Shown piece by piece: positions 2,175-49,764 of a stretch of 55,908 bases of DNA. Both the position numbers and the translations under genes were made by a program. A model generated the notes under the pieces. It was not told the DNA's origin, did not search any database, and saw nothing but the letters and a program-made list of their open reading frames with translations. Every line of letters begins with the position of its first letter. Within the stretch, counting starts at the first letter, position 1. Origin of the DNA: a virus; IMG/VR virus record IMGVR_UViG_3300034198_019998, positions 1 through 55,908 of that record. One strand, given 5' to 3'.

Positions 2175-2636
2175 TTATTTCAAGGGGTTCCAATCTTGCT
2201 CATCCAGTATGGGAGGTACCCAATTCTTGATTATACCTCCGCTTTCAATCTGCATGATGATGTAGTCTCCGTATCCGCGATCGGCGGTACAGAGAATATG
2301 GTCAGGCACATACTCATCCCGCCATTTGGCGATTTTGTTTAGTGTCTGGTCTGCCAACCAATAATTTCCTTCATCGGTCACTTTATAATGAACACGTACC
2401 TCAGTGGGTGCGGATTCATTCCAATTAAGGATATGACCTGTTCCAAGCTCGATAACAGGAGCCCATAAAGGCCCCCGTCTGCAGGGTATCAATTCCCCAC
2501 TAATATCGGCTACGGCGTTAACATGTGTGTCTTCCCAATTCCTGACGGGAACTTCCACGATCAGGGCATAGGAATTACTTATGATGTCATCTGTAATCAT
2601 GTGTACGTAGTGTTTCAGTGTTGTCCTGTACCGCAT
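2175..2636 (-). CDS. hypothetical protein (153 aa)
   Basis: An unrecognised soluble protein with many aromatic and acidic residues. The listed start (ATG 2636) overlaps the preceding gene by 50 bases. An internal ATG at 2600 (MITDDIISNSYAL) gives a more usual 14-base overlap and may be the true start. It sits just above the 191-residue CGTSAC gene with a 3-base gap. No signal peptide, repeat or catalytic motif stands out. Confidence 0.6.
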   Translation of the reverse strand: MRYRTTLKHYVHMITDDIISNSYALIVEVPVRNWEDTHVNAVADISGELIPCRRGPLWAPVIELGTGHILNWNESAPTEVRVHYKVTDEGNYWLADQTLNKIAKWRDEYVPDHILCTADRGYGDYIIMQIESGGIIKNWVPPILDEQDWNPLK

Positions 2637-2835
2637 TAGATATAGCTCGTATACTCACGGATACAGGAGTCCTTAAATATCCAAGAAATGTATGACAGAT
2701 GGGCGACGTAATATTATTACAGCAATGCTGCCAAATATCGCGCCGCACATTTTTCCATTCCTCTTCGCGTGCATGCTCCCACATATCTTCCCAGATAACT
2801 GGATCTGCCTGCCTCTGCTGCTGGCTATCTGTCAT
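2587..2835 (-). CDS. divergent tetrapeptide-repeat protein (82 aa)
   Basis: After MTDSQQQRQADP the sequence WEDMWEHAREEEWKNVRRD shows the four-residue rhythm with W, V or M at every fourth position, then decays into less regular tetrads (ICHTFLGYLRTPVSVSI). It overlaps the next gene upstream by 11 bases. It groups by pattern and size with the other tetrad proteins. No function known. Confidence 0.55.
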   Translation of the reverse strand: MTDSQQQRQADPVIWEDMWEHAREEEWKNVRRDIWQHCCNNITSPICHTFLGYLRTPVSVSIRAISNAVQDNTETLRTHDYR

Positions 2836-3079
2836 TATGAAAGGCGTTTTTTATTGCGAGGTGCGTCGGCCTTATCATACTATCCCAAACATTGGTCAAG
2901 ACATTTTCCCAAACTTCACTCGACACGTGGGGAGCGGTATTAGGATGTAGGTTATCCCAGATAACACCGTCGATTATTGGTAATAACTCCAACAACATAC
3001 GATCCCGGACCTTGATCTGGGCTATATCCAAAATATGGGAACTATTCTCGATGCAGGTGCCTTGAGATAAATCTCTCAT
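2825..3079 (-). CDS. tetrapeptide-repeat small protein (84 aa)
   Basis: The N-terminal half is only loosely periodic (MRDLSQGTCIENSSHILDIA); the C-terminal half shows clear tetrads (VSSEVWENVLTNVWDSMI). The start overlaps the stop of the 3076-3315 gene by four bases (ATGA). No recognised domain. Confidence 0.55.
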   Translation of the reverse strand: MRDLSQGTCIENSSHILDIAQIKVRDRMLLELLPIIDGVIWDNLHPNTAPHVSSEVWENVLTNVWDSMIRPTHLAIKNAFHNDR

Positions 3080-3315
3080 CGGGGCTCGACACCATCATTT
3101 GGGAAATAGATCCGAATGTTGTTCACGATATTGTCGGTTACCTGGCTATATAGATTCTCCCAAATGTGATTACAGATACCAGTCGCAAGGTGTGAGTTTC
3201 CACGGGTTATCAAAGGCGCCCAAGCACTGTACCAGACATCGTCCCGCACAGCATTATTGAGGGCGTACTCCAACTTGCGGGTCGTACTTACAACACTGTA
3301 AGGGTATTTACTCAT
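3076..3315 (-). CDS. tetrapeptide-repeat small protein (79 aa)
   Basis: I chose ATG 3315 (MSKYPYSVV), which overlaps the end of the upstream CGTSAC gene (stop at 3308-3310), over a longer frame reaching 3369. The body has x-x-N/D-V/I tetrads near both ends (NNAVRDDVWYSAW; HIWENLYSQVTDNIVNNIRI). It is the third of three tandem tetrad genes in this cluster. Confidence 0.55.
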   Translation of the reverse strand: MSKYPYSVVSTTRKLEYALNNAVRDDVWYSAWAPLITRGNSHLATGICNHIWENLYSQVTDNIVNNIRIYFPNDGVEPR

Positions 3316-3760
3316 AGTCTTTACAAACAAGTTCCTCTTCGTGCAGTTCGTACATCCTGTCCAGGACATCCTGGAGTGTGGGCGGTTTTTGGTAATGCTC
3401 GGGGTAAATGATCATTTTCCAATTTTCCGCAGAAGATCCGAAGAAATCCTCCAGGACCATCTCACAGACAAATTCATTATTTTCCTTTAGCCTTACCAAG
3501 GCGTTACGCACATTTTCACCACTGCTCCAGAAGAAGCTATCCGGGAACAGTACGGGTAGGTGGCCTACCAAACAGGCAGACGTACCACACTCAAGCTTAC
3601 GCCCGCGGCGGTGGCGCTCAGGCCACTCTTCGCGTGCAGTCTCAAGGTCATGCGGACTGGCGGCCGAAATATAAGTTCCAATGTTAAAACGCTGCGGCTC
3701 ATCTTCCATCAAATTGTGGAGGTAATTGAGCAATTTAGTTCGCCTTTCAGCTTTGTTCAT
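3308..3760 (-). CDS. CGTSAC.VGHLP paralogue (150 aa)
   Basis: A helical N-terminus (MNKAERRTKLLNYLHNLMED) leads to the motif CGTSACLVGHLPVLFP around residues 58-73. A later FFGSSAENWKMIIYPEHY segment matches the 1596-2171 protein. It is shorter, lacking the cysteine-rich insert. The pair flanks a group of tetrad-repeat genes, which suggests duplication of a small gene cassette. Function unknown. Confidence 0.7.
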   Translation of the reverse strand: MNKAERRTKLLNYLHNLMEDEPQRFNIGTYISAASPHDLETAREEWPERHRRGRKLECGTSACLVGHLPVLFPDSFFWSSGENVRNALVRLKENNEFVCEMVLEDFFGSSAENWKMIIYPEHYQKPPTLQDVLDRMYELHEEELVCKDYE

Positions 3761-5842: not shown

Positions 5843-6508
5843 TTAAGTATGTAACACACTTTTCATGATTATTTCACGAATGGAGTCATACACCTCGTCT
5901 GCTGTCTGATCCGTCGTATCCACCTGCAAGCAAGGTACACCGTCGGAGAAAACCATAGGACGAGCGTACGCCTCGTGCAGTCCCTTGAAATAATTCAGTT
6001 GCCCTTCCGCGGCTAATTTTGACGCCTCGTCGCTTTCCGCTGATTCGTCTTGCTGGGCAGCTAGTGCACGCTCCATCAACACCTCAGGCTTAGCATTCAG
6101 TACGACATAAAAGTTAGGCGTAGCGGAAGGGTGAGGTAACGCCGCCTGTATAAGCTTCTCAATCGCATCTGGAGGACGATTAGCCATAAACGATTGGTAG
6201 ACACGCGCACTCATCAGCCACCGATCCGCGATTACATTAATGTTTCTTGCGAAAGATGGGAGAATAATGGCTTCGAAACAGTCAACTTCTGCTGCCAAGA
6301 ACCCAAGGAGCTCGGCCTGCTTACTCTCAACAATTCCAGAGAACACTAAGGAACGCAAGGCGTCCGCAAAAGGAGTACCTCCGGGATTGTGGGTGGGGTT
6401 AGTTGGAATCTTTAACTCCTCGTTCAGCCAAGAAGCAATACGCGTGGTGAGAGTTGTCTTGCCAGCCCCATCCGGCCCTTCGAACACGATAAAACTAGGT
6501 TTATACAT
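5843..6508 (-). CDS. tmk: thymidylate kinase
   Basis: Phosphorylates dTMP to dTDP with ATP, supplying precursor for phage DNA synthesis in the host cytoplasm. The N-terminus IVFEGPDGAGKTTLTTRIA carries the thymidylate-kinase P-loop (FEG.DG.GKTT). A DRW triad (about residue 95) takes the place of the usual DR-Y/H/W motif, and the lid region is rich in A/S/E. At 221 residues it has the length of a bacterial enzyme. Its neighbours are small hypothetical genes, so it is not part of a larger nucleotide operon here. The next gene (5170-5820) begins 22 bases beyond its stop. Confidence 0.9.
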   Translation of the reverse strand: MYKPSFIVFEGPDGAGKTTLTTRIASWLNEELKIPTNPTHNPGGTPFADALRSLVFSGIVESKQAELLGFLAAEVDCFEAIILPSFARNINVIADRWLMSARVYQSFMANRPPDAIEKLIQAALPHPSATPNFYVVLNAKPEVLMERALAAQQDESAESDEASKLAAEGQLNYFKGLHEAYARPMVFSDGVPCLQVDTTDQTADEVYDSIREIIMKSVLHT

Positions 6509-6525
6509 AGATTTGTTTTTGGTTG

Positions 6526-6756
6526 TTAACTTTTAATACGGAACTCTCTGACGGCACCATGATAGTTACAGTTAGTGCACAGGATGAAACTTTCATCGGT
6601 CCAATCAGAATCATACATGTCAGATGTTCCTTCGTCTGTGATACGCACCATTGCGCGAATCTCAATTTTGAACTCAGAATAGTGCGCGCACACGGGGCAC
6701 TCTATATCGTACAGGCAATTATCGTTTCCGTTTTTGTCGCAGTAATTTTTAGTCAT
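6526..6756 (-). CDS. small zinc-ribbon protein (76 aa)
   Basis: Starts at ATG 6756 (MTKNYCDKNGND), overlapping the stop of the next gene by four bases. Two CxxC pairs (CPVC and CTNC) separated by about 40 residues suggest a zinc ribbon. No other domain. It is one of four CxxC proteins in the window; such proteins often bind nucleic acid or partner proteins. Confidence 0.6.
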   Translation of the reverse strand: MTKNYCDKNGNDNCLYDIECPVCAHYSEFKIEIRAMVRITDEGTSDMYDSDWTDESFILCTNCNYHGAVREFRIKS

Positions 6757-7043
6757 GACGAACACCAACCGCCGACGACCCAGCCCTTAGTCTGTCCGTC
6801 TTTAAACGACGCCGCAAGAGCGAATTCCCACTTATCGTGGTGCTCCTCTACATATTCTTCTGCAAGCTCGGCGCTAGATTTTTTGACATCTTTCCAGGAG
6901 ATCTCGCCCGCAAGCATACCGATCTCACCAGAGTAAGAATAGCCATCTTCGAGTAATGACTTTGACGTCATCTCGTTCCACTGCGCTTGCACTTCTTTCT
7001 TGTCTGAAGTCTCGAACTTCACCGCGTTAAATATAGCACCCAT
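6753..7043 (-). CDS. hypothetical protein (96 aa)
   Basis: A soluble acidic protein beginning MGAIFNAVKFETSDKKEVQ and ending in the aromatic, glycine-rich tail GWVVGGWCSS. No domain recognised. It is followed directly, with a 4-base overlap, by a zinc-ribbon gene. About 60 non-coding bases lie above its start, with a possible TACAAT -10 element but no good -35. Confidence 0.6.
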   Translation of the reverse strand: MGAIFNAVKFETSDKKEVQAQWNEMTSKSLLEDGYSYSGEIGMLAGEISWKDVKKSSAELAEEYVEEHHDKWEFALAASFKDGQTKGWVVGGWCSS

Positions 7044-7106
7044 GAACTAGTATTGGTTTGATTGGGGACATTGTATTTCTTTGCGTATATTGCGCAAGTG
7101 CAACAA

Positions 7107-7640
7107 TTAAACAACCGACAGCCCGGAAATCTTATCCGGGGACAGGTTGAGCTGCCCGCGATACTTACCCATGGGAGTTTGGTCGGTGATGATTTTTTTA
7201 GCACGTACCAGAGGGGTTGCACTCTCCTTACGAGCTACAGAATGTACGTTGCTGCTTTGTACAACAGAAACGTGCTTGATCACTACACAGCCGGACTCAT
7301 TCACGGTATAACCTTGTTTAACCAATTCTTCGTAGTTCAAGGTATCCTTGAACTGTCGCTCTTTCTGTAAGCCGGACAACGATTTCGCCCAACTTACAGC
7401 CAGCGCCGCTGCCGCTTGAGCGCCGACCAAAACGCCGTCGGGATTTTCCAAGGATATTTCACCATCTTGAATAAGCTTCAAAGATTTTTCTAGAACTCCG
7501 TTGTAGCCATCGGGTCCTAGGAACTCCACCACCATGTCAGAAATATTGCCGTCCGTAGACGTGTAACCTTCTATACGCAAACATTTACGCTCGCTGTAAG
7601 CTTGGTTAACTGTGTTTTTTATTTCATCTAAATGTATCAT
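7107..7640 (-). CDS. hypothetical protein (177 aa)
   Basis: ATG 7640 (MIHLDEIKNTVNQAYSERK) is preferred to an in-frame TTG two codons earlier. The protein is soluble, with an alanine-rich helix in the middle (VGAQAAAALAVSWAKSLSGL) and a basic C-terminal third. No family recognised. It starts two bases beyond the stop of the small zinc-finger gene above it. Confidence 0.6.
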   Translation of the reverse strand: MIHLDEIKNTVNQAYSERKCLRIEGYTSTDGNISDMVVEFLGPDGYNGVLEKSLKLIQDGEISLENPDGVLVGAQAAAALAVSWAKSLSGLQKERQFKDTLNYEELVKQGYTVNESGCVVIKHVSVVQSSNVHSVARKESATPLVRAKKIITDQTPMGKYRGQLNLSPDKISGLSVV

Positions 7641-12539: not shown

Positions 12540-14339
12540 TTACCCTTGCACCATTTGAGGTGCCGAAGCGCGGCCTTGGGATGCCGCATCTCTGCGAATG
12601 TCCTCCATGAATTTCCGCACCAGAGCTTCCATATTTGGATTCACTGCCAACTCCGCTAGCTTTTGGCGAGTTACCTGTGGATCCGCAGCAGCGATAAGTT
12701 CTTGAGCAATAGACATTGCTTCCTCCTGAAGTCGTACAGGGTTTCCGCTGCCGACAGGACCGCCACCCCCACCAGGAGCACCACCGCCACCTGCTTGTTG
12801 TGCCGCAATAACGCCCTCCATAGAACCTTCCTGCATTTCCTTCTGGGCTTGCTGCTGAATTTTGGAAACCTCTTTCTGGATCTCCGCATCTTCCTGTGCG
12901 CGTTGACGTGCAGCTTCGACAGGGTCGTCGATGCCCAGAGGGCGGTACGCCACTTGTCGCGGGATTTCGGCCCCAGCCGCAAGTTGCATGTAAATGCTTC
13001 TCTTCTCAAGATCATCAGCCATTCTGGGAAGCTGAAGGCTCACACCAATTTGCTCACGTCCCATATAGTCCAGAACACGCTCTGTGGTCCACTTCAGTAG
13101 ACGGTCGAATCCACGATGTAGGAAGTGAAAGCTATTCTCGAACAGACGAAGAGCCGTAGGCACCTGCTGTACTTGCAGGGACCCACGGAAAAGCTCCGCT
13201 GGGTAACCCATGGAGTCCAGGAGATCATTCACTTGGAACTCCATCAAATCCTTAGGCGTCAAGGATTTGCCTTGTGATCCCACCTCTTGATAAGTAACCG
13301 GGAAGGGCAGGGCGTACATTGAGAAGGGATCCTTCCTGCGCTCCTTGATCATCCGACTCATCTCTGCCCGGTAAGGTCCGAACAAGGTTTGAATGGTCGC
13401 ATCTTGCACATTACCACTCACCTGTGGAGAGAAAATACGGAAAGGAAGCATGTAGTCCATGCCCACCACTTCGTCGATTTTCTTGTAAACTTGCAATTGG
13501 TGTATGGATCTGTAATTAGCGATGATCTCCGGAAGCCCCCAACCGTAATTCGATATACCTGAAATAGTGGGCGCCTTGAGATGGAAAATCTGATGCTCCT
13601 TAAACAGGAAGTCTTTGTCTTCCGCAATAGCTTGAAGCATAGGCATCGGAAGATCATTGACTTGATATAGCGTGCCGTCTTTTACAGCCTTAGCCAGCTC
13701 GGGCTCAAAGCGCCAAATGACTTGCGTACGCTTACTAGTCCAAGAATGCTGGAGAGTAACGTATCTGGGATCCAGCTTGTGGAATCTAATCTTGGACATG
13801 TCCTTAACTGGACGATCGATAAACTTCAGTTTAATCGTCTTTTGGGCACTGCCACCATTCGGAGTATGCATGGGGTCTGGAACCTCGTACACCATCTCCT
13901 TCCAGTGGTACTTGACCTTGGAGGTAGGGAACATGCTCAAATCATATTCTTTGTACTTACCTCGGGGGTCGCGTAAAAAGCGGTTGAAGGGAAAATCCAG
14001 GCGTACGAATCCATTACCGTAAGCCGCCCACTCTTCTCCCAGCTCCAACATCGTACCCCAGAGGTCCAGATCGGTAGCTAAGAATTTTCTCAACTCGTCC
14101 CGCTCACGTTCGTCCCCGGCTTCGCCAGTGAAGTTAACGTCAGTAACGAAGTGGCTGACCACTCGTATGGAAGCCCTCCGATACTGAGGGTTCATGTAAT
14201 AAAGGTATAAACAGAAATCCAAAGCAGTCTCCAACTCAGTTGGAAACGAAGCATTAGACGGCAACATGAAGGGATCGCTAAATTGCTTTCCCGTTGTTCC
14301 GTTTGTGAAAGGGGCCAGATAATCGCCGTTGGCTGCCAT
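12540..14339 (-). CDS. portal-like protein (599 aa)
   Basis: Forms the dodecameric DNA gateway at a head vertex in family terms. Supporting sequence: an early YYMNPQYRRASIRVVSHFV segment, EEWAAYGNGFVRLDFPFNR, then IFHLKAPTISGISNYGWGLP with a helix IIANYRSIHQL, and a late crown-like helical region with a glycine-rich hinge and charged coiled coil (EIQKEVSKIQQQAQKEMQ). Length and domain order fit phage portal proteins. It lies in the virion operon but 31 kb from terL. No protease motif. I am fairly confident, but a profile search would settle it. Confidence 0.75.
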   Translation of the reverse strand: MAANGDYLAPFTNGTTGKQFSDPFMLPSNASFPTELETALDFCLYLYYMNPQYRRASIRVVSHFVTDVNFTGEAGDERERDELRKFLATDLDLWGTMLELGEEWAAYGNGFVRLDFPFNRFLRDPRGKYKEYDLSMFPTSKVKYHWKEMVYEVPDPMHTPNGGSAQKTIKLKFIDRPVKDMSKIRFHKLDPRYVTLQHSWTSKRTQVIWRFEPELAKAVKDGTLYQVNDLPMPMLQAIAEDKDFLFKEHQIFHLKAPTISGISNYGWGLPEIIANYRSIHQLQVYKKIDEVVGMDYMLPFRIFSPQVSGNVQDATIQTLFGPYRAEMSRMIKERRKDPFSMYALPFPVTYQEVGSQGKSLTPKDLMEFQVNDLLDSMGYPAELFRGSLQVQQVPTALRLFENSFHFLHRGFDRLLKWTTERVLDYMGREQIGVSLQLPRMADDLEKRSIYMQLAAGAEIPRQVAYRPLGIDDPVEAARQRAQEDAEIQKEVSKIQQQAQKEMQEGSMEGVIAAQQAGGGGAPGGGGGPVGSGNPVRLQEEAMSIAQELIAAADPQVTRQKLAELAVNPNMEALVRKFMEDIRRDAASQGRASAPQMVQG

Positions 14340-14568: not shown

Positions 14569-15081
14569 TTACGCAGGAGTTTTTTCTTCCGGGGTATTGA
14601 CACGGAAGAACGAAAGGAATGTAACAGGTATTTGCTTAAAGGTAAAGAGACCACCCCCGTAAATCACTTCTAGTGTTTGCTTCTCGATTTCCAGTGTCAG
14701 CTCTGTACCGAAAGCAGGTTCAATCTGCGTATCATCTTTCGACAAGATGAGTCCTACGCCTGTAGGGTTGATGGATACATGTAGCGCTTTGAGTGTAATA
14801 ACACCTATCGACGTCCTTACCCTGACATCTTTATGCTCTCCATACTCTTTGAGTAGACTGGAAAATATCTCCAACGGATCCTTACTAGTCGAGGTGAACG
14901 CTGCGTTGGGTATAGATTTGGGTAAATGCTGCACACGCTCGACATCACTTAAATCTGTGTCGGGAGGTAGCGCAGCGTCATCCGCATCAGTCGTCATAAG
15001 TTTTAATTTCTGTTGTTCACGTACACGTACCATTTGTGGTGCATTGTCCGTACGAGGATCTATAGACTGAGAATTTAACAT
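14569..15081 (-). CDS. hypothetical protein, weakly PilZ-like (170 aa)
   Basis: The first 70 residues are hydrophilic and possibly disordered. The rest is beta-rich, with VRVRTSIGVITLKALHVSIN and PTGVGLILSKDD followed by a strand-rich tail. The arrangement faintly recalls PilZ-like beta-barrels (strand, N/S-x-x-G, strand), but the RxxxR motif is absent, so the resemblance is weak. It lies in the virion operon; function unknown. Confidence 0.6.
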   Translation of the reverse strand: MLNSQSIDPRTDNAPQMVRVREQQKLKLMTTDADDAALPPDTDLSDVERVQHLPKSIPNAAFTSTSKDPLEIFSSLLKEYGEHKDVRVRTSIGVITLKALHVSINPTGVGLILSKDDTQIEPAFGTELTLEIEKQTLEVIYGGGLFTFKQIPVTFLSFFRVNTPEEKTPA

Positions 15082-17007: not shown

Positions 17008-17724
17008 TTAATCAGGCAATTTCAAAGTCTTTCCATCCAGATCTTCTGGGCTCATGTACTTTAATTTGCCGGTACTTCTTTGACGGAAAAGTTGGTATAG
17101 TTTCCCGTCAGAACCGATCTTAGTTCCCCACGCCATCCGCGTGTCGATACCGATCTTTTCCGATTCTGGACCTTCAAGCGTAGACAAGAATCCGAACTGA
17201 GATCCATGAATGGCCTGCATATCTTCAGTAATTGCCTGGTCACTACCAATACCCCCTGGTCCCATCTGGGTCGCTCTCCTGGACTGCTCCATTAAATGTA
17301 GAGGGTTTATCTCCTCCAAAGGCGCACTGAGGGGATTACCCAGAAGCATACCATTTGCGTACCCATCAAACATGAATGGATGCAACATTTTTAGGTTTTT
17401 GCGTTTAGCCGACATGTACATGAGCTTTTGGCGAGTCTTGTCAGCATCGAGCTTTACGCGCTCCGCCAAAAGCTTATCCGTGGTATGAAATCTTTTGAAT
17501 ACCAAGCTGTCACGTTCGTCCGTAGGCTCTAAGCCTCTATTGACAGCAAGAAGCTTCTCCGTCGCAGCCAGTAACCCGTCCACACCTACGGGGGCGTATT
17601 CTTCCCCATCGTCGTCAGGATCCTTGCGAGGTTGCACCTCGGGTACTGTTTTACGTAATGCATTTACGACAGGTGATACCGCAGCATTCTTCGTAATAAT
17701 GTTATATATGTCTTCCCGGGTCAT
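17008..17724 (-). CDS. rpoB: RNA polymerase beta subunit, central fragment (238 aa)
   Basis: This is the part of a multisubunit beta subunit around fork loop 2. Residues 140-158 (NPLHLMEQSRRATQMGPGG) align without gaps to NPLSEITHKRRISALGPGG of bacterial RpoB. Residues 172-193 (IHGSQFG...LEGPESEKIGID) align to the VHP.H.GR...ETPEG.NIG segment. Upstream, PTDERDSLVFKRFHTTDKLL matches the D.ID.LGNRR region. The residues equivalent to E. coli H526 and S531 are Q147 and T152, so rifampicin resistance is expected. The fragment stops about 45 residues beyond that segment. No catalytic C-terminal beta or beta-prime is present here. Gap of 18 bases to the kinase-fold gene. Confidence 0.8.
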   Translation of the reverse strand: MTREDIYNIITKNAAVSPVVNALRKTVPEVQPRKDPDDDGEEYAPVGVDGLLAATEKLLAVNRGLEPTDERDSLVFKRFHTTDKLLAERVKLDADKTRQKLMYMSAKRKNLKMLHPFMFDGYANGMLLGNPLSAPLEEINPLHLMEQSRRATQMGPGGIGSDQAITEDMQAIHGSQFGFLSTLEGPESEKIGIDTRMAWGTKIGSDGKLYQLFRQRSTGKLKYMSPEDLDGKTLKLPD

Positions 17725-17742: not shown

Positions 17743-18591
17743 TTAGAGGTTTGCCAATAGACGCCGTAAATAATCGATAGGATTCCTTCCTTCCGTTGTG
17801 GCTTTGTGCTCTCCCCTTAGTTTTTCAAGAGGTTGAAACTTGAAAGGCATGGGGTCGCTAATTACTGGGCGACCTTCTGCAGTCCACATTACATTGTGTG
17901 GGCGCCTAGTGTCTAAATTAAAATCCCTAATCTTATACCTCTCAGTATCGGTTTTAGCGACCAATTCGCCTCGGGTGTTTTTCTTGGAATTGAGGAGCGA
18001 ACGTAAAGGTTCTACACTTTTAGCCTCCGGCCTACCGGTACGCCAAAGATTCCGTATCTCGTCATTTAAGTAGCCGCGCTGCTCCGTCCGATACGGAGTG
18101 GTTTCAAGTTTTTGCAAATTCTTCGACGCCTGCACTAAACTGCGCATTCGTGCACGCAGAGCGGAAGAAGATATACCTTCCTGCAATCGCTCTACAGTGT
18201 AGCCGGTTGGATGCTGCGCGAACACCTTGGGAAAGATGTCCGGATTACTCTTCATGATGTTAACCCGCGTGGGGATATCAACGTCACTCAGCATGCTAGT
18301 AACTTTGCCAGGACCGAGTACGTTAGGGCTAGTAAACTCCGAAGATAACGGACTCTTGAAGAAAGTCTTGGTTGCCGTAGGCCCAACGCCTCCAGTGAAT
18401 GAGGGGAATACGGCACCCTCAGCGCCCACGCCGAGAGGGTTCTTGGACGTCAGTCGTACTTTGCCTGCCGGGATGACATTAGCCAACCTGTGCTGATTAC
18501 CTCGCGACAACTGCTCAACCACGCGCAGCCACTTGGGGGAAGCCGCCTTTATGAGTTGGGAGATCCGCACTGGGCTTTCAACGTGGTTCAT
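17743..18591 (-). CDS. kinase-fold protein between RNA polymerase pieces (282 aa)
   Basis: A protein-kinase-like fold is suggested by a glycine loop at residues 54-62 (GVGAEGAVF), a lysine pair at 75-79 (TKTFFK), a hinge-like YTVERLQEG at 131-139, a catalytic-loop-like DFNLDTRRPHNVMW at 223-236 (D227, N233) and ISDPMPF at 244-250 in the position of DFG. HRD and DFG are altered, so activity is uncertain. An N-terminal LIKAASPK carries the K-x-A-A/S motif of this operon. It overlaps the beta N-terminal gene by ATGA. A role in modifying RNA polymerase or host proteins is inference. Confidence 0.6.
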   Translation of the reverse strand: MNHVESPVRISQLIKAASPKWLRVVEQLSRGNQHRLANVIPAGKVRLTSKNPLGVGAEGAVFPSFTGGVGPTATKTFFKSPLSSEFTSPNVLGPGKVTSMLSDVDIPTRVNIMKSNPDIFPKVFAQHPTGYTVERLQEGISSSALRARMRSLVQASKNLQKLETTPYRTEQRGYLNDEIRNLWRTGRPEAKSVEPLRSLLNSKKNTRGELVAKTDTERYKIRDFNLDTRRPHNVMWTAEGRPVISDPMPFKFQPLEKLRGEHKATTEGRNPIDYLRRLLANL

Positions 18592-21290
18592 GAATTAAGG
18601 CGTGCGCGTGCTTGTTCTAAATCTTCGGATGCTTGCTTAAGCATTTGGGAAAAGGATGCAGCTTTCTCAACCGGCTGCGGCATCCACGAGTAAGGCATCT
18701 CTTCCCCTCTCAGTTGTCGCGCGGCCCTCTCCGGGACGTGTCCTACCAATCCTTCGGGTGTGTCTTCCAGTCGGTAGCGTATCGCGATATCCTTCCGGTG
18801 TTTGTCCGCCGGAGTTATGTCGGTATCGTTTGGGTCGAAGTGAGAGCTGTTTAGGTATGCGTTGTAGTGTGCATACCTCAGCTTCTCCAGCGTAGCGTTA
18901 TCGACGGTGATTGGCTGTAAATCCGATGAGTGCGTAGAAGGGGTGTAAAAAATATCCTTACCCTTCCTATCCTTGATGCGCTTTACCAGTTCGTCCAATA
19001 CCGTACTTGGATCTTCCACGTCGACAGACAATTCGACTTCATTAGTGTGCGGGTTGTTCACGGCCAGACCTTTATGTCCCAGCTCTTCCAGTATCTGGTG
19101 GAACTCCTTACGCAGGCCCATCCCTTGAGTCTGCTCGCCGGAAACAACGAAGTTATATGCAGCTTTCTCCTGGCCCGGGTATTTAGCTAGATACCCATGG
19201 TCCCCCCAAGATTGGAAACCCCTGTCTTTATAGAATTTTAGAAGTACGTCAGCCGGTACGGCTTTATCGGCCATTGGATCTGGCTTCACTACAAAAGCTC
19301 TGTCCTGCCCCTCTAGCATGTCTAATAGTGTGACCAGCGCGGAAGCCAACCCCTTACGCCTATGGTCCGTGCGGGTTTTTAACGCTGTTATCTCAGACAC
19401 TTTGTCAGAAAAATCTTGGACGGCGATATGCGCTCTGGGTGATTGATCAACGTCGTCCTCAGTCGCAGGTAGCGCATATACTCGAGATTTGTCATTTATA
19501 CGCCCAAGGACCAACGTATCCGGGTTACCGCCAATATCCAGATCCCAAGACTCTTCAATGTCTGGAGTAGCAAGCATAGTTTCCCGCCCGCTGTCAGTTT
19601 CACCATAATTACGTATAACATTCGCTGTCTTAGCCAGGATGGCCTGCCTAGAATCCTCAGCGACGGCTTGTTTCGATAACGCATAAGCTTCGTCTACTTG
19701 TATTGTAGGCGGAATTTTAGAAGATGCCATGTGCAATCTGAAGCCAGTAGGCACATGGGTGACTCCTGGATACGGGCCTCCGGGAGAGTCGATGACCCAT
19801 TCGGTGGGGCGATCTGTCATTGAGCGCTGTATCAGAAAATGCTTGTGCCCGTAGCGCTTGGCGTCTGAGTGCGACTTGGCTTCGAGTAGCAATTGCAATT
19901 GTGCTGCTCTGTCATCTTCGCTAGCAGCTTTTTTGAATTTGCTGGATTTATATTCATCCATCTGACGCTTCAAAACGTCAGCGGATGATTCGTCCAGATA
20001 TACCAAAGGGTCGACCGCCCAGTTACGTAAGGCGTAGGCTCTTCTGGGGGTTGGGTTTTTCAGGAATTGAGACAAGTGTCTAGCCTTAAAGGACTTCCAT
20101 CTCTTTATCTGTCTATCGTCATCTCCCGTACGCTTACCATCAGCGTATCCGTAATACCAGTCTAACCAACCTAGTTGGTTACTACCAGGAGGCATCCATT
20201 CCTTTGGCCAAGAGCTCATCCCTGCAAGTCTATTACCTACGCGCCCATACAGGTTGCTGTATTGTTCTTGCAGATCAGAAGGTTTGAGATCCGGAGAAAA
20301 ATTCGTGTCAGGTCCGGTGTTATCAATTTCGTCCCACTCTTCCCCAGCACACTTAAACATGCACATATCCGTGAAGGCTTCAAAGCATTCGTCGGGAGAT
20401 AGGTCCGGCTTGAACTTCTCGGTGTGTGCGCGAGATGCAATTTTCTCCATCATTACTTCCCTGCCCGCCCAACGTGCCTGCCACTCCGCAGATTTGGACA
20501 TCGAGAAAAGATTAGGTAAATTCTTGCTGATTACCTTGGCGTTGACCTGTGCGTCGTCCAGTGACATCCTGACAGCTTTGACCTTGTCCTCACGACTAGC
20601 ATCAGCGGATCGCATCCTTGCAGGCACAAGCCTCTCGTAAGCTTTATCAAACACACGGGAGTCGTATTTAGCAGCATTTGCAGAAAATATCTCATCCCCC
20701 CACATTTTTTTGAGGCGATCGTCGGGTACTCCAAGGTCTTTAAGCAGGGAGTACATGTGCATGTTAGCCTGCCCAAGCTTAAGCCTGTATTGAGTGGTAT
20801 CGGGTTCGAAGCCTACCCGAAAAGCACCCCTGGACTGTTTAAGATTAAACTGCGTTTCCAGATTACCGTTGTTCTGCCTGCGGGTGTAAACCCCGGGAAG
20901 AAGGCGGGACTGCATGATGGTGGTGTACTCGTTACCACCATGGATAAAGGTTCCGCGATTGGTGAGGTAAGGTACCCGCATCAGGGATACCTTGTTCTCA
21001 TCAAGCATATCACCTGTCTTCTCATCAAACAGACGTACAGTACCGCGTAGTCGGCGGGACAAGTGGCGTTCCTCTAATAGTGCCTTTTTCTGCTCGTCTA
21101 ACGTGAAATTCTCCGGCCCGTCGTAATCAACATCTGCTACTTCCATACGCACACCTCCCCAAGACATGGGGTAAGATGAGATCAAAGCCTTTTTGGTGCG
21201 GTCGTAGATATCTGTCCGCGCAGTGTCAAAATCGCTAAAATCCCGCAATTTGACATTGGGGGGCATTTCTATTTCTTCGGGCGCAGGCAT
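18588..21290 (-). CDS. rpoB: RNA polymerase beta N-terminal piece fused to GNAT-like domain (900 aa)
   Basis: Starts at ATG 21290 (MPAPEEIEMPPNV); a longer frame would run through the terminator and promoter above. Residues about 60-200 match the RpoB N-terminal region: MRVPYLTNRGTFIHGGNEYT and LLPGVY (104-135) align to IPLMT..GTFVING.ER...SPGVF, followed by F..GFEPDTTQYRLKL. Residues about 357-430 (GWLDWYYGYADGKRTGDDDR...RRAYALRNW) look like an uncharacterised viral domain. Residues about 585-705 resemble a GNAT acetyltransferase, with EITALKTRTDHRRKGLASAL as the acetyl-CoA motif. K-x-A-A/S motifs recur (KKAASEDD, VEKAASFS, MLKQASED). The usual beta-2 lobe appears replaced. It probably acts in a phage RNA polymerase; the remaining subunits are not in this window. 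Confidence 0.75.
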   Translation of the reverse strand: MPAPEEIEMPPNVKLRDFSDFDTARTDIYDRTKKALISSYPMSWGGVRMEVADVDYDGPENFTLDEQKKALLEERHLSRRLRGTVRLFDEKTGDMLDENKVSLMRVPYLTNRGTFIHGGNEYTTIMQSRLLPGVYTRRQNNGNLETQFNLKQSRGAFRVGFEPDTTQYRLKLGQANMHMYSLLKDLGVPDDRLKKMWGDEIFSANAAKYDSRVFDKAYERLVPARMRSADASREDKVKAVRMSLDDAQVNAKVISKNLPNLFSMSKSAEWQARWAGREVMMEKIASRAHTEKFKPDLSPDECFEAFTDMCMFKCAGEEWDEIDNTGPDTNFSPDLKPSDLQEQYSNLYGRVGNRLAGMSSWPKEWMPPGSNQLGWLDWYYGYADGKRTGDDDRQIKRWKSFKARHLSQFLKNPTPRRAYALRNWAVDPLVYLDESSADVLKRQMDEYKSSKFKKAASEDDRAAQLQLLLEAKSHSDAKRYGHKHFLIQRSMTDRPTEWVIDSPGGPYPGVTHVPTGFRLHMASSKIPPTIQVDEAYALSKQAVAEDSRQAILAKTANVIRNYGETDSGRETMLATPDIEESWDLDIGGNPDTLVLGRINDKSRVYALPATEDDVDQSPRAHIAVQDFSDKVSEITALKTRTDHRRKGLASALVTLLDMLEGQDRAFVVKPDPMADKAVPADVLLKFYKDRGFQSWGDHGYLAKYPGQEKAAYNFVVSGEQTQGMGLRKEFHQILEELGHKGLAVNNPHTNEVELSVDVEDPSTVLDELVKRIKDRKGKDIFYTPSTHSSDLQPITVDNATLEKLRYAHYNAYLNSSHFDPNDTDITPADKHRKDIAIRYRLEDTPEGLVGHVPERAARQLRGEEMPYSWMPQPVEKAASFSQMLKQASEDLEQARARLNS

Positions 21291-23171: not shown

Positions 23172-23654
23172 TCAATCTATTATTTCATTTTTCTCGTAAG
23201 GAATGCCATTGGCCTCATAATAAAGCATCATCTCGATGATGTCAGACTTAGTCAAACCCTTTTTACAAACAGCGCAAGAACCCACATGGTAAAAGTGCTT
23301 CTTGTCAAAACGGAACCCATGAGGGTCTACACAAGGATCTAGCCACCCAATCACCGAACGACATCTCACGCAGACCAAGCGCGCCTGGTCTACGAAATCG
23401 TTACGGCAAGGAGGACACACCGGGTCAATTGCGGTTATGTGCCCCGTGTTTACAATTGCTACCCGCTCGCAGGGAACGAGCTTGTTACACGCACACCTAA
23501 CTTTACTAGGGTCCGCTTCGGGATCTGCAACCGTGCTAGGCTTGCCCATCTGCGCAAGCAAACCAACAACGTCTTCAGCTGTTGGTTTCGGGTGCGTCTT
23601 TGACCATGCCAGAAACACTTCGCGCTTTTTGGTGGCTTCTTCTTCAGGATTCAT
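23172..23654 (-). CDS. multi-cysteine zinc-binding protein (160 aa)
   Basis: Cysteine pairs occur as CAC, CPPC, CVRC and CAVC (with single cysteines between) across residues 53-130, enough for two zinc sites. The N-terminal 50 residues are helical; the C-terminus (KSDIIEMMLYYEANGIPYEK) is a helix. It overlaps the start of the recQ region by 11 bases. Possibly a nucleic-acid-binding partner of the helicase, by position only. Confidence 0.6.
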   Translation of the reverse strand: MNPEEEATKKREVFLAWSKTHPKPTAEDVVGLLAQMGKPSTVADPEADPSKVRCACNKLVPCERVAIVNTGHITAIDPVCPPCRNDFVDQARLVCVRCRSVIGWLDPCVDPHGFRFDKKHFYHVGSCAVCKKGLTKSDIIEMMLYYEANGIPYEKNEIID

Positions 23655-26301
23655 GTACGCGGAAATAGGATTCGATGAACTCGTGTTTTTCCGAGTCTGG
23701 TAAATTTACATACTTCAGCACGTCGTCAAGTTTACGGTAAGCATCATCCCGTTTTAAAGCGAGGCGATCAAAATCAACAAGAGAAAGGTCTCCGATGATT
23801 CTAGTCTCTGCCCCAACATAAGGATCGCAAAACCTAATGAAGCCGCTCTCAGCCCAACGCTTAAACCAGCCCCTCACAGTGCTGTACCCTACGCCTACGG
23901 TGTCGGCAAACTCGTTCAAATCGAACTCATAAAATCCTTCATCGTTCGGAATACCTAAGCTATCTACTACACGCATGTAGTCGTGGTATCGCTCGTTGTC
24001 GGAAGGTACATCCGCATCTGTTTCACGAAGCTTGCATATTTTTTTATCTACCTGGTCACGTACGATAACGTTAGAGCCCTTGAGGGTCTCAAATATAGCC
24101 CGCATACCAAATTTTGAAACATTCGCTTTAGTAGATATTTCATCGGCCGTGATCTTGCATACGCCCGATCGATCAGCAGAGAGTTTCAGCGCGTGGTAGA
24201 CTTTCTTTATGTCGCCGACAGGAGGATGTCCTGTACGTAAGAAGAAGTTCTGCGTTTCCAGACTGTCCTGAGAAAAGTATGTAATACAGATCGAGTATTT
24301 ACCGTCACGCCCGGCACGGCCTACCTCTTGAGCGAGAGCTTCGATAGTACCAGGAATATCACGGTGAATAACAGCTCTAACATCGGGCTTATCCACGCCC
24401 ATACCAAAGGCGTTAGTTGCCACAACAATGTTCGCGCGGCCTTCCATGAAATCATCTTGGTTCGCACGTTTAGCCCCTGGAGAAAGATCCCCGTGGAAAA
24501 TTCTTACTTGTTTACCTCGTAAGTTCCGCGACAAAGTTTCAGCCAGCTCCTCAACTTTTCTGCGAGTGGAACAGTAAACGATAGTGCTACCTTCCGTCTC
24601 CCTGATTTTATCAGCTATAGAAATATCACTTACTAGATTATCGCTCCTAAGATCCAGATTTGTGCGCCGGGGATAGAAGGTGAGTTTGCGTGCGTGCGCT
24701 AATCCCAGTACGCGGCGAACATCGTTCTCCACCTGCTGGGGACACGTAGCTGTAAAAGCGGCTACCACCTTGGGATTGTATTCCCGAATGAAATCGCCCA
24801 CCTTACAATAGCTATGCCTAAAATTGTCACTCCACTGGGATAAGGTGTGACAATTTCCAACTACCAGGGCTTTCCCAGAACCGCGTACAATAATGTTCCC
24901 ATGCGGTACGCGCACGCAATACACCAGGCCGTCATAAGATTCCTCGGTGCGGGACAAACACTGAGTACCAATCCAATCACGCTCAGTGTTTACAAAAAGA
25001 CGCCATACTGTGGAGTAATTGGCAGACCTTTCATCGTGCTGGGGTACTAAATTTGTTTTATATCCTGCTAATATCGCTACAGCCTGTACGAAGTCTACGT
25101 TCTCCTTAATTATGGAGGAGTAGTACAAGCAACCCTGGTAAGGTTCACTACCATCCCATAGAGCGACCTCGCGGATAAACTCTGCAGCTACTTCCGAGGT
25201 CATAGATGCAAAGTCAAACATATTGGATAGGACCTTAGAGAATCCAGAAACCTTGTGTACCAAGAATCTTCTGCGAGGGATACGATTACCCGTATCCAAT
25301 TTCTCTCTTTCATTGGTCACCTCACTATATGAAAGTCCGGTGAGCTCAAGTAAACTTAGAAACCTACTTATTTTGCGCTCCTTTGAAAAAGAAAATGCAG
25401 CAGTGATACTTTCGTCGGGATGTACATAATGCGAACTACCATCAGCCTGGTAAGCGATGCAAAGCCTATCCATAGCGGTAAGCTCGGTTTGATTGCCCGC
25501 TTCATGTTTTGCCGCTACGAGAAGTCTTTTCGTGTGATTGAACTTAATCCTTGAGACTGTCTCCTTTTTCCAGCGATCTCCGTAGAAAGCCAGTAGCTCA
25601 TGATTTGGGGTCATACGCAAATCACAAAGCTGCCCAGAGTGCAGGCGTATAAGGTCTCCCTTGTATTCCTGACGAATCACCTTATCAGGGGAAACAAAAG
25701 ACAAGGTCTTAGTATCTGGATCGACCTGAGCGACTTTCGCGTCGTCCTGTAGTGCGTCAAAGCGAACAAACCCTTTGTCTGTAAATATTTCTACTTCCGG
25801 GGCAAAGCATTCGTCCATCACAACAAAGTCGGGATTAACGTGCCCCATGGCGGTTTTGAATGCCTCATTATTGAGGCGTTCGGGTGCGACATATAGGAAA
25901 TTTAATTCCCCGTCCTGCCAACGCCTGGCCGCATCAAGATTTTCCCCATCTGTCTGCATCCCAGACATCGCAGCGGCGGGAATACCCATACGATGCAATC
26001 CTTTAACTTGGTCACGCATTAGCGCTACCAGTGGGCTGAAAACAATAGCCTTCCAATCCATACATAAAGTCGGGATTACAAAACATGCAGTCTTCCCGGT
26101 ACCAGTAGGCAAAATACATATAGTATCCGCCTGCGACATGATCCGCATGATTACGGGCTCCTGACCTTCCCGTAAGCCGTCATATTTCATACGCTGTAGC
26201 ACGGGGGCCAAATTGGCTAGTCCCTTGCGTACAAGTTCCCAATCGGGCTCGTCCGGGCGATCAGGCCAACGGTCTCTTATACTTAATTCTAAATTATTCA
26301 T
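23644..26301 (-). CDS. recQ: RecQ-family DNA helicase precursor containing an intein (885 aa)
   Basis: A 3'-5' ATP-dependent DNA helicase for recombination and fork repair. Motif I LPTGTGKTACF (residues 64-74), Ia VFSPLVALMRDQV, a split Walker B (VMDE at 161-164 continued by CHTLSQWSDNFRHSY at 484), FTATCP, and motif VI ALAQEVGRAGRDGK are visible. Residues 165-483 are an intein. Without it the protein is 566 residues, a normal RecQ core with a helix-turn-helix-type C-terminus (STKANVSKFGMRAIFE). The helicase cannot be active until the intein splices, because it splits the DECH box. Confidence 0.88.
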   Translation of the reverse strand: MNNLELSIRDRWPDRPDEPDWELVRKGLANLAPVLQRMKYDGLREGQEPVIMRIMSQADTICILPTGTGKTACFVIPTLCMDWKAIVFSPLVALMRDQVKGLHRMGIPAAAMSGMQTDGENLDAARRWQDGELNFLYVAPERLNNEAFKTAMGHVNPDFVVMDECFAPEVEIFTDKGFVRFDALQDDAKVAQVDPDTKTLSFVSPDKVIRQEYKGDLIRLHSGQLCDLRMTPNHELLAFYGDRWKKETVSRIKFNHTKRLLVAAKHEAGNQTELTAMDRLCIAYQADGSSHYVHPDESITAAFSFSKERKISRFLSLLELTGLSYSEVTNEREKLDTGNRIPRRRFLVHKVSGFSKVLSNMFDFASMTSEVAAEFIREVALWDGSEPYQGCLYYSSIIKENVDFVQAVAILAGYKTNLVPQHDERSANYSTVWRLFVNTERDWIGTQCLSRTEESYDGLVYCVRVPHGNIIVRGSGKALVVGNCHTLSQWSDNFRHSYCKVGDFIREYNPKVVAAFTATCPQQVENDVRRVLGLAHARKLTFYPRRTNLDLRSDNLVSDISIADKIRETEGSTIVYCSTRRKVEELAETLSRNLRGKQVRIFHGDLSPGAKRANQDDFMEGRANIVVATNAFGMGVDKPDVRAVIHRDIPGTIEALAQEVGRAGRDGKYSICITYFSQDSLETQNFFLRTGHPPVGDIKKVYHALKLSADRSGVCKITADEISTKANVSKFGMRAIFETLKGSNVIVRDQVDKKICKLRETDADVPSDNERYHDYMRVVDSLGIPNDEGFYEFDLNEFADTVGVGYSTVRGWFKRWAESGFIRFCDPYVGAETRIIGDLSLVDFDRLALKRDDAYRKLDDVLKYVNLPDSEKHEFIESYFRVHES
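24853..25809 (-). mobile_element. intein in RecQ Walker B motif (319 aa)
   Basis: The insertion begins with Cys (CFAPEVEIFTDKGFVRFDAL), has a block B (DLRMTPNHELL), and ends YCVRVPHGNIIVRGSGKALV-VGN before the +1 Cys of CHTLSQ. The penultimate residue is Gly rather than His, a known variant that can slow or alter splicing. The central about 200 residues are long enough for a LAGLIDADG homing endonuclease; only LCIAYQADGSSHYV resembles its first motif, so it may be degraded. Insertion at a catalytic DExH box is typical of intein target choice. Confidence 0.85.
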
Positions 26302-48642: not shown

Positions 48643-49764
48643 TCACACTGCGTTGTTTAACACAATTTCTAAAAGTCTTTTCTGCTGCCACACAGGGAGA
48701 TCGGCCAAACTATTACTGTAGTCTGTGGCTGCGTATTTCTCGCGCATGAGATGCCCCACTCCGTCCAGTACGGATGCGATAGCCGTGTTAGCTTCGTCGG
48801 AGAACATGCGTTGCACTGCCTGCTTGACCGACTGCCCATCCTGGTCGTAAACCGCAGCGACAAACTCCTCTGCAGGAATCATGACGCCGTGCAGCACTAC
48901 GTGCGTGTTGGCAATCTTCTCTAAGTCTTGGTGCCGCATGCCCGTGTAGAAGCAATCGTAAGGACTTGGAATCAGCATGCCGTTGGCTTGCTTGCGATAG
49001 TCGATACCGTGCTGTTCGTCCAGGAGCAACCATAAGTCTGCAGCCTGCTTCGTTGCTTCGTCCGTACCTGCTTCCGCTGCTAGGCTTGCGCATTGCTTGT
49101 AGATCTCCAAACCTTCTTCGGAAACGCCAGCAAGTTTGCGGGTGTAAAGTAAAGTCTCTGCGTAACCGGGATTGGGATAGCGAAGCTCTCCAGCTTGCTG
49201 CACGGTCCAAGGAATCGAAGACAGAGGAACTTCGTTCTCGTGCGCAGCTTTCATGATATTGATTGCCCCCGTACGAAACAAATCAATAGGCATGCGATCT
49301 TCTGCGAAATCCTGGTCAATATTGACTGCCGCCTCTTTGACCTCTTCCGCATTGTTAAGCGGGTAGTAAGATCCTACTTCTGTTTCATTCCACTGAATTT
49401 GCACCGCCCACTTCTCTTGCGTCTGAGGCTCTTCTGTGGCGCTCTTGGTATGGTTAAAGACAGAAACTATCGCTTCGAGGTCTTTTTCGATTTGATGGAA
49501 TGCGCAAGCTTGCTTGGTCCGCTCCCAGACTTTATCGTCGGTGTGACCATTACCTGCTAGATAAATTGCGCTGAGCAGTGCTGCGGCTTTATTGTGCACG
49601 GGATGTAAGCGGTGCGCCTGGTCTGCAAATGCTGAGATATGCAGGCGATCCAGATCTTCTGGGGTAATTACCGTTGCTTGTTTGACATACTCAGGCAATC
49701 CTACCTGGGTATCTGCGTAGTAAATTGCTGTCGGATTATTATCGCGCACGAAGTCCTTGTCCAT
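48643..49764 (-). CDS. putative virion-associated protein (373 aa)
   Basis: A helical protein with repeated K-x-A motifs: YVKQATVI, TKQACAF, IMKAAHE, TKQAADLW, YRKQANG, VKQAVQRM. These resemble the motifs in the 8553-21290 operon, suggesting it belongs to the same virion set. No enzyme motif. Its promoter (49771-49799) gives an almost leaderless transcript. Confidence 0.6.
   Translation of the reverse strand: MDKDFVRDNNPTAIYYADTQVGLPEYVKQATVITPEDLDRLHISAFADQAHRLHPVHNKAAALLSAIYLAGNGHTDDKVWERTKQACAFHQIEKDLEAIVSVFNHTKSATEEPQTQEKWAVQIQWNETEVGSYYPLNNAEEVKEAAVNIDQDFAEDRMPIDLFRTGAINIMKAAHENEVPLSSIPWTVQQAGELRYPNPGYAETLLYTRKLAGVSEEGLEIYKQCASLAAEAGTDEATKQAADLWLLLDEQHGIDYRKQANGMLIPSPYDCFYTGMRHQDLEKIANTHVVLHGVMIPAEEFVAAVYDQDGQSVKQAVQRMFSDEANTAIASVLDGVGHLMREKYAATDYSNSLADLPVWQQKRLLEIVLNNAV

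Follow-up and report, generated by a model that had tools for sequence, protein, structure and literature searches.

The split beta locus of the window

The window (the whole stretch of 55,908 nucleotides analysed here, from IMG/VR virus record IMGVR_UViG_3300034198_019998) encodes a protein of 900 residues that begins with an N-terminal piece of an RNA polymerase (RNAP) beta subunit, referred to as beta-N, and continues into a tail of 640 residues holding a conserved domain X, a GNAT-like acetyltransferase domain and an acylphosphatase-like domain (Table 1). The reading frame is open throughout from the beta N-terminal domain into the GNAT-like segment, and codon log-odds preferred the beta frame all along the tail, segment by segment, with the GNAT part included. 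Residues 61–283 matched the rpoB profiles of NCBIfam (E = 5e-8), beta-N matched beta chains in the PDB from E = 4e-6, and it is 27–31% identical to the single-ORF beta proteins of phage Arash and Vibrio phage D69. Together with the second beta piece downstream, the locus carries the signatures of a cellular-type multisubunit RNAP beta subunit, both the beta N-terminal and the Rpb2_3 regions. The proposal of the initial annotation that one polypeptide holds both a phage beta subunit and a GNAT-like domain was borne out by rpoB and GNAT-type matches within one uninterrupted frame. Part of IMG/VR contig 3300032267_001178 has the same sequence as the window, and the exact fusion is known from one population, therefore this contig does not provide an independent second copy.

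Table 1. Features of the beta locus and its gene cluster, with positions in the window.
Feature	Position (nt)	Strand	Basis
900-residue ORF (beta-N and tail)	18588–21290	minus	Single uninterrupted frame
Beta-subunit N-terminal piece, residues 1–263: start of protrusion and most of lobe	20502–21290	minus	Sequence matches
Domain X, residues ~330–450, conserved	19941–20303	minus	42–54% identity to segments in split-beta clade
Short conserved segment, residues ~462–531	19698–19907	minus	30–33% identity to post-beta-N segment of L086, L087, L089–L091
GNAT-like acetyltransferase domain, residues ~585–705	19176–19538	minus	Pfam GNAT clan, AAC(3)-I-type profile, motifs, MSA-conditioned AlphaFold2 model
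Acylphosphatase-like domain, residues ~708–780, with GMGLR and AVNN	18951–19169	minus	Pfam, AlphaFold2/Foldseek, clade homology
C-terminal part of acylphosphatase module, residues ~781–880, ARQLRGE	18651–18950	minus	Aligns with L101 and L107
ORF between beta pieces, 282 aa	17743–18591	minus	Resemblance to kinase motifs, seen by eye only
Second beta piece (protrusion return and fork, Rpb2_3)	17008–17724	minus	Pfam RNA_pol_Rpb2_3, E = 2.6e-7, over cut-off
Portal protein, same gene cluster	12540–14339	minus	BLASTP E = 3e-44 to annotated Arash portal

The alignment to beta continues to residue ~263 of the 900-residue protein and picks up again at residue ~40 of the second beta piece, which aligns with residues 259–469 of the Arash protein. 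In Arash, D69 and approximately 48 IMG/VR relatives a single ORF covers both regions without a break, whereas in the window they are separate ORFs with the tail and the 282-aa ORF between them. Alignment, read with the domain limits usually given for beta, puts the junction close to the lobe's C-terminal edge. The lobe is therefore largely kept and the tail is not its replacement, so the earlier proposal that the GNAT domain stands in place of the beta-2 lobe does not hold; the domain is part of an added C-terminal tail. The 282-aa ORF had no family, phage or PDB match, and a kinase identity, suggested by G-loop-like and DFG-like motifs seen by eye, found no database support and was set aside.

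As in Arash, the portal gene lies on the same strand and in the same cluster as the beta pieces. The remainder of the polymerase, the C-terminal part of beta (beta-C) and beta', was not found in either the 55.9-kb window or the 72.9-kb contig that contains it, each being a fragment. In larger contigs beta-C has its own ORF (G002, G023–G026, G032 and G033), as does beta' (G002 and G023–G026), and the enzyme is therefore in at least four pieces there. Defence-system models had no match. Elsewhere in the window, a DEAD-box helicase gene (23644–26301, minus strand) has an intein-like interruption (Pfam Intein_splicing E = 5e-4, below cut-off), and a run of small ORFs that look paralogous lies at ~2587–3369, with many D-N-V repeats and long antisense frames; similar ORFs are present at 15000–20000 of L013 (~55–60 kb in the parent contig G001).

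Domains of the C-terminal tail

The motifs of a GNAT enzyme lie at residues ~585–705, where the initial annotation had placed them, and in frame with beta: SEITALKTR at residues 632–640, RRKGLA at 644–649 and FYKDRGF at 686–692 (nt 19397–19215). RRKGLA agrees with the pyrophosphate loop of motif A, [Q/R]-x-x-G-x-[G/A], and FYKDRGF supplies the motif B tyrosine ahead of an x-G-F turn, aligning with LYTKLG of AAC(3)-I-like GNATs. The interval originally drawn for the domain, 18885–19540, includes the GNAT but spans residues 584–802, so that the acylphosphatase-like domain is also inside it.

When scanned in isolation, as had been suggested as a check on the annotation, the segment matched three models of the Pfam GNAT clan, namely FR47 (E = 0.0012, 19.2 bits against a gathering score of 22.1), Acetyltransf_7 (E = 0.0064, 17.3 bits against 27) and Acetyltransf_1 (E = 0.012, 16.3 bits against 20.7); none of the three matches reached its curated cut-off. 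The GNAT scored more weakly in a scan of the whole protein (FR47 E = 0.007), and a single-genome search gave E = 1.9e-4. A phmmer search of the PDB with the segment gave matches at E ~0.3, all of them aminoglycoside GNATs. Against a profile built from six AAC(3)-I-like GNATs the segment scored 28.5 bits, whereas 20,000 shuffles of matched composition reached 9.8 bits at most; this difference overstates independence, as the six members were fetched with patterns derived partly from the window's own segment. Peptide-pattern scans found no close homologs of the segment in 2.9 million viral contigs or in the genome collection, and patterns seeded with AAC(3)-I returned only bacterial AAC(3)-I-type GNATs.

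Structure prediction was another check that had been put forward. With the available phage homologs of the tail and no GNAT relatives in the alignment, AlphaFold2 gave no fold for the GNAT part (pLDDT 25–42). With an AAC(3)-I alignment the strands and helices came out in GNAT order, but at low confidence (pLDDT 52.8, pTM 0.49), and a confident fold model was not obtained. Foldseek matches to this model were mostly GNATs among the top ranks, with a TM-score of ~0.4 and none at E ≤ 0.001. Because the model was conditioned on GNAT sequences, it is consistent with a GNAT and is not proof of one. Taking the motifs, profiles and model together, residues ~585–705 very probably adopt a GNAT fold; catalysis by the domain is rated lower than its fold.

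The region that follows, residues ~708–780, looks acylphosphatase-like. It matched Pfam Acylphosphatase at E = 0.015 (16.0 bits against a cut-off of 22.5), and AlphaFold2, using an alignment of phage sequences only, modelled it as beta-alpha-beta-beta-alpha-beta with pLDDT 52–69, to which Foldseek matched solved acylphosphatases (TMt ~0.58, rmsd ~3 Å). A homologous module, matching window residues 708–879 with 32.6% identity (E = 2e-12), is carried on the second beta piece of L101–L107, and the arginine of GMGLR and the asparagine of AVNN, candidate counterparts of the catalytic Arg and Asn of acylphosphatases, are kept in L101 and L107.

Domain X occurs in most of the split-beta clade described below, either fused to beta-N or as an ORF of ~136 aa; L025 and L093, the pair that branches off first in the clade, gave no match to it. 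It is rich in tryptophan, and weaker relatives are present in Vibrio phages (jumbo) and rhizobial plasmids.

The split-beta clade and its cargo

Relatives with the same split were found by alignment-guided scans. In a maximum likelihood tree of the beta-N domain, 17 of the 35 rows are split and fall on one side of a single branch (support 100/99), consistent with one change. The tree thus shows that the split of beta near the end of the lobe arose once in the clade.

The domains predicted at the split are not the same in all relatives. In L025 the cargo matched the 2'-5' RNA ligase superfamily (E = 5e-10) and was Acb1-like at E = 1.5e-4, and in L094 and L099 it matched NUDIX at E ~1e-3. Family matches therefore show that the cargo at the split varies between relatives. 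The L025 domain (6456–7202) is fused to a phage RNAP beta piece and could be a counter-defence enzyme; Acb1 is known for anti-CBASS activity as a family. Further resemblances noticed by eye, HAD-like in L094, zincin-like with HELIH in L086 and L089, and NlpC/P60-like in L087 and L091, were unconfirmed by Pfam where scanned and are given no weight here. The second beta piece is interrupted by intein-like insertions, at two positions, in L086, L088, L089, L091, L094, L105, L107–L109, L025 and L070, and L091 appears to hold two of them.

GNAT domains scored above the Pfam cut-off in 7 of 15 related contigs. In G024 and G025 the GNAT forms the N-terminal part of a long ORF whose end is 0–4 nt ahead of the beta-C ORF; its distance from beta-C is at most ~3 kb in G023, where the GNAT is below cut-off, and in G032 and G033. 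No kinship was detectable between the GNAT of the window and the GNATs adjacent to beta-C in relatives (rank 692 among 20,000 shuffles). GNAT cargo near polymerase pieces therefore appears to recur by separate acquisition, and this recurrence is at best convergent.

Peptides of the form K-x-A, which in the window occur between domains and resemble processing sites, were considered as cleavage sites of a head protease and rejected, being enriched in the window but not specific across the clade. The enrichment in the window's virion-type genes and beta was 2.0-fold, with one protein grouped after its count had been seen, whereas in clade cargo K-x-A was enriched 1.44-fold against 1.60-fold for R-x-A. 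A 373-aa protein of the window with no family assigned (48643–49764, minus strand) contains 13 K-x-A tripeptides where shuffles gave an expectation of 2.1.

A putative effector tail and its relation to known systems

The explanation favoured here, with moderate confidence, is that the tail may be a polyvalent effector fused to a split phage polymerase, which would travel with the RNAP and acetylate a substrate. It builds on four things shown by comparison of sequences, namely that beta is split, that the split arose once, that the cargo varies and that the reading frame is shared. In one clade of RNAP-encoding tailed phages, the beta gene would have been divided a single time close to the lobe's end, and the split point would have become a site where enzyme domains join the flanking beta pieces or sit between them. 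In this phage the N-terminal piece would have gained domain X, the GNAT and the acylphosphatase-like domain. Polyvalent proteins of phages and conjugative elements include GNAT, 2H phosphoesterase and RNAP modules and are predicted to be injected (Iyer et al. 2017, PMC5512222). From this precedent and the portal gene in the same-strand cluster, we infer that the tail represents an effector payload of this type, tied to the polymerase, that would be carried with it and act early. The tail would probably be delivered in the virion together with the polymerase, a reasonable reading of the genomic context. The GNAT would use acetyl-CoA to acetylate an amine, more likely on a host protein than on the phage polymerase.

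A GNAT fold that is catalytically dead or structural, filling space near the lobe or aiding assembly of the split RNAP, is of rather low probability. Weak family scores, fast divergence and the lack of close homologs would fit such a role, and domain X, being kept in nearly all clade members, suggests that some of the added parts are structural. However, the RRKGLA pyrophosphate loop and the FYKDRGF tyrosine are retained, and motifs of both types are usually functional in GNATs; in addition, the GNAT is not common to the clade, as a structural subunit would be expected to be, and cargo elsewhere in the clade is enzymatic. Distinctly improbable is a tail directed at the phage polymerase itself, phage nucleic acid or metabolites instead of the host, for example through self-acetylation as an early-to-late switch of the RNAP. 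The covalent fusion to the polymerase and the position of the GNAT-bearing ORFs beside the start of beta-C in G024 and G025 speak for it, but the variety of domains fused in close relatives (2'-5' RNA ligase-like, NUDIX and GNAT) is hard to square with one conserved regulatory role.

Two further alternatives were considered. A chance match in a region of another fold is very unlikely: sub-threshold Pfam scores and the absence of a fold in the AlphaFold2 model made with no GNAT sequences are what it would predict, yet three GNAT-clan models and the GNATs of the PDB converge on the same residues, both hallmark motifs are present at the correct spacing, and the profile score is far above shuffles, even if profile members were picked partly with window patterns. 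That unrelated phage fragments were joined into a chimera during sequence assembly is scarcely credible. The exact 900-aa architecture does come from one population only, but beta-N is fused to domain X in several other contigs, the acylphosphatase module is found again at this locus in L101–L107, and the protein lies in one open frame with uniform codon statistics.

If the tail is indeed an effector fused to the polymerase, a polymerase subunit would double as a vehicle for host-modifying enzymes, with the GNAT physically tethered to the polymerase in a way that is testable. The region between beta-N and the second beta piece could then serve as bait for new phage effectors; comparison across the clade at the split already gives 2'-5' RNA ligase/Acb1-like, NUDIX, acylphosphatase-like and unassigned domains. 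The clade would also be a single-origin case of a universally conserved RNAP gene that has been broken up and presumably still works. A more speculative extension, held only tentatively, is that the lobe-edge split evolved as a loading dock, by which a virion RNAP made up of several beta and beta' pieces might bring swappable effectors (GNAT, 2'-5' RNA ligase/Acb1-like, NUDIX and acylphosphatase), built into its subunits, into the host.

Several elements of the arrangement are already known, including split phage betas (PMC7598289), a phage beta piece with a fused HD phosphohydrolase (PMC7824862) and injected phage GNATs (PMC5512222). The novelty claimed in the initial annotation is narrowed accordingly, as injected GNATs and enzyme–RNAP fusions have precedents (PMC5512222, PMC7824862), whereas no description of their combination with a split multisubunit beta, or of a lobe-edge beta split whose enzyme cargo varies and includes a GNAT, was found in the main text of open-licence papers. 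Like polyvalent proteins (PMC5512222), the 900-residue protein unites several biochemically unrelated domains in one mobile-element polypeptide, here beta-N, domain X and the GNAT-like and acylphosphatase-like domains. The RNAP modules among polyvalent proteins are N4-like virion RNAPs fused to a metallopeptidase, ART, lysozyme or PBECR, whereas the carrier here is a single piece from a split multisubunit beta, and Pfam found no metallopeptidase in the 900-aa protein.

As in the multimeric RNAP-encoding Caudovirales, or mReC (Weinheimer and Aylward 2020, PMC7481178), to which the window is likened by description only, beta and beta' homologs are recognisable against cellular RNAP; a word search of the main text of that paper found no such split or cargo described. 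Division of beta into separate polypeptides is shared with the vRNAP and nvRNAP of phiKZ-like jumbo phages (PMC7598289, PMC7824862), but the beta of the window is much closer to cellular beta and its lobe-edge split carries variable cargo. The virion RNAP of Thermus phage P23-45 (PMC10770324) is likewise fused to another functional protein and is carried in the virion, as proposed for the polymerase here, although it is a single-polypeptide two-barrel enzyme on the tape measure with no effector tail of the kind seen here. Rac, the GNAT of a phiKMV-like phage that acts on the alpha subunit of host RNAP, is proposed, as cited in PMC7824862, to redirect host transcription; from that account Rac is free-standing, whereas the GNAT of the window is fused to the phage polymerase.
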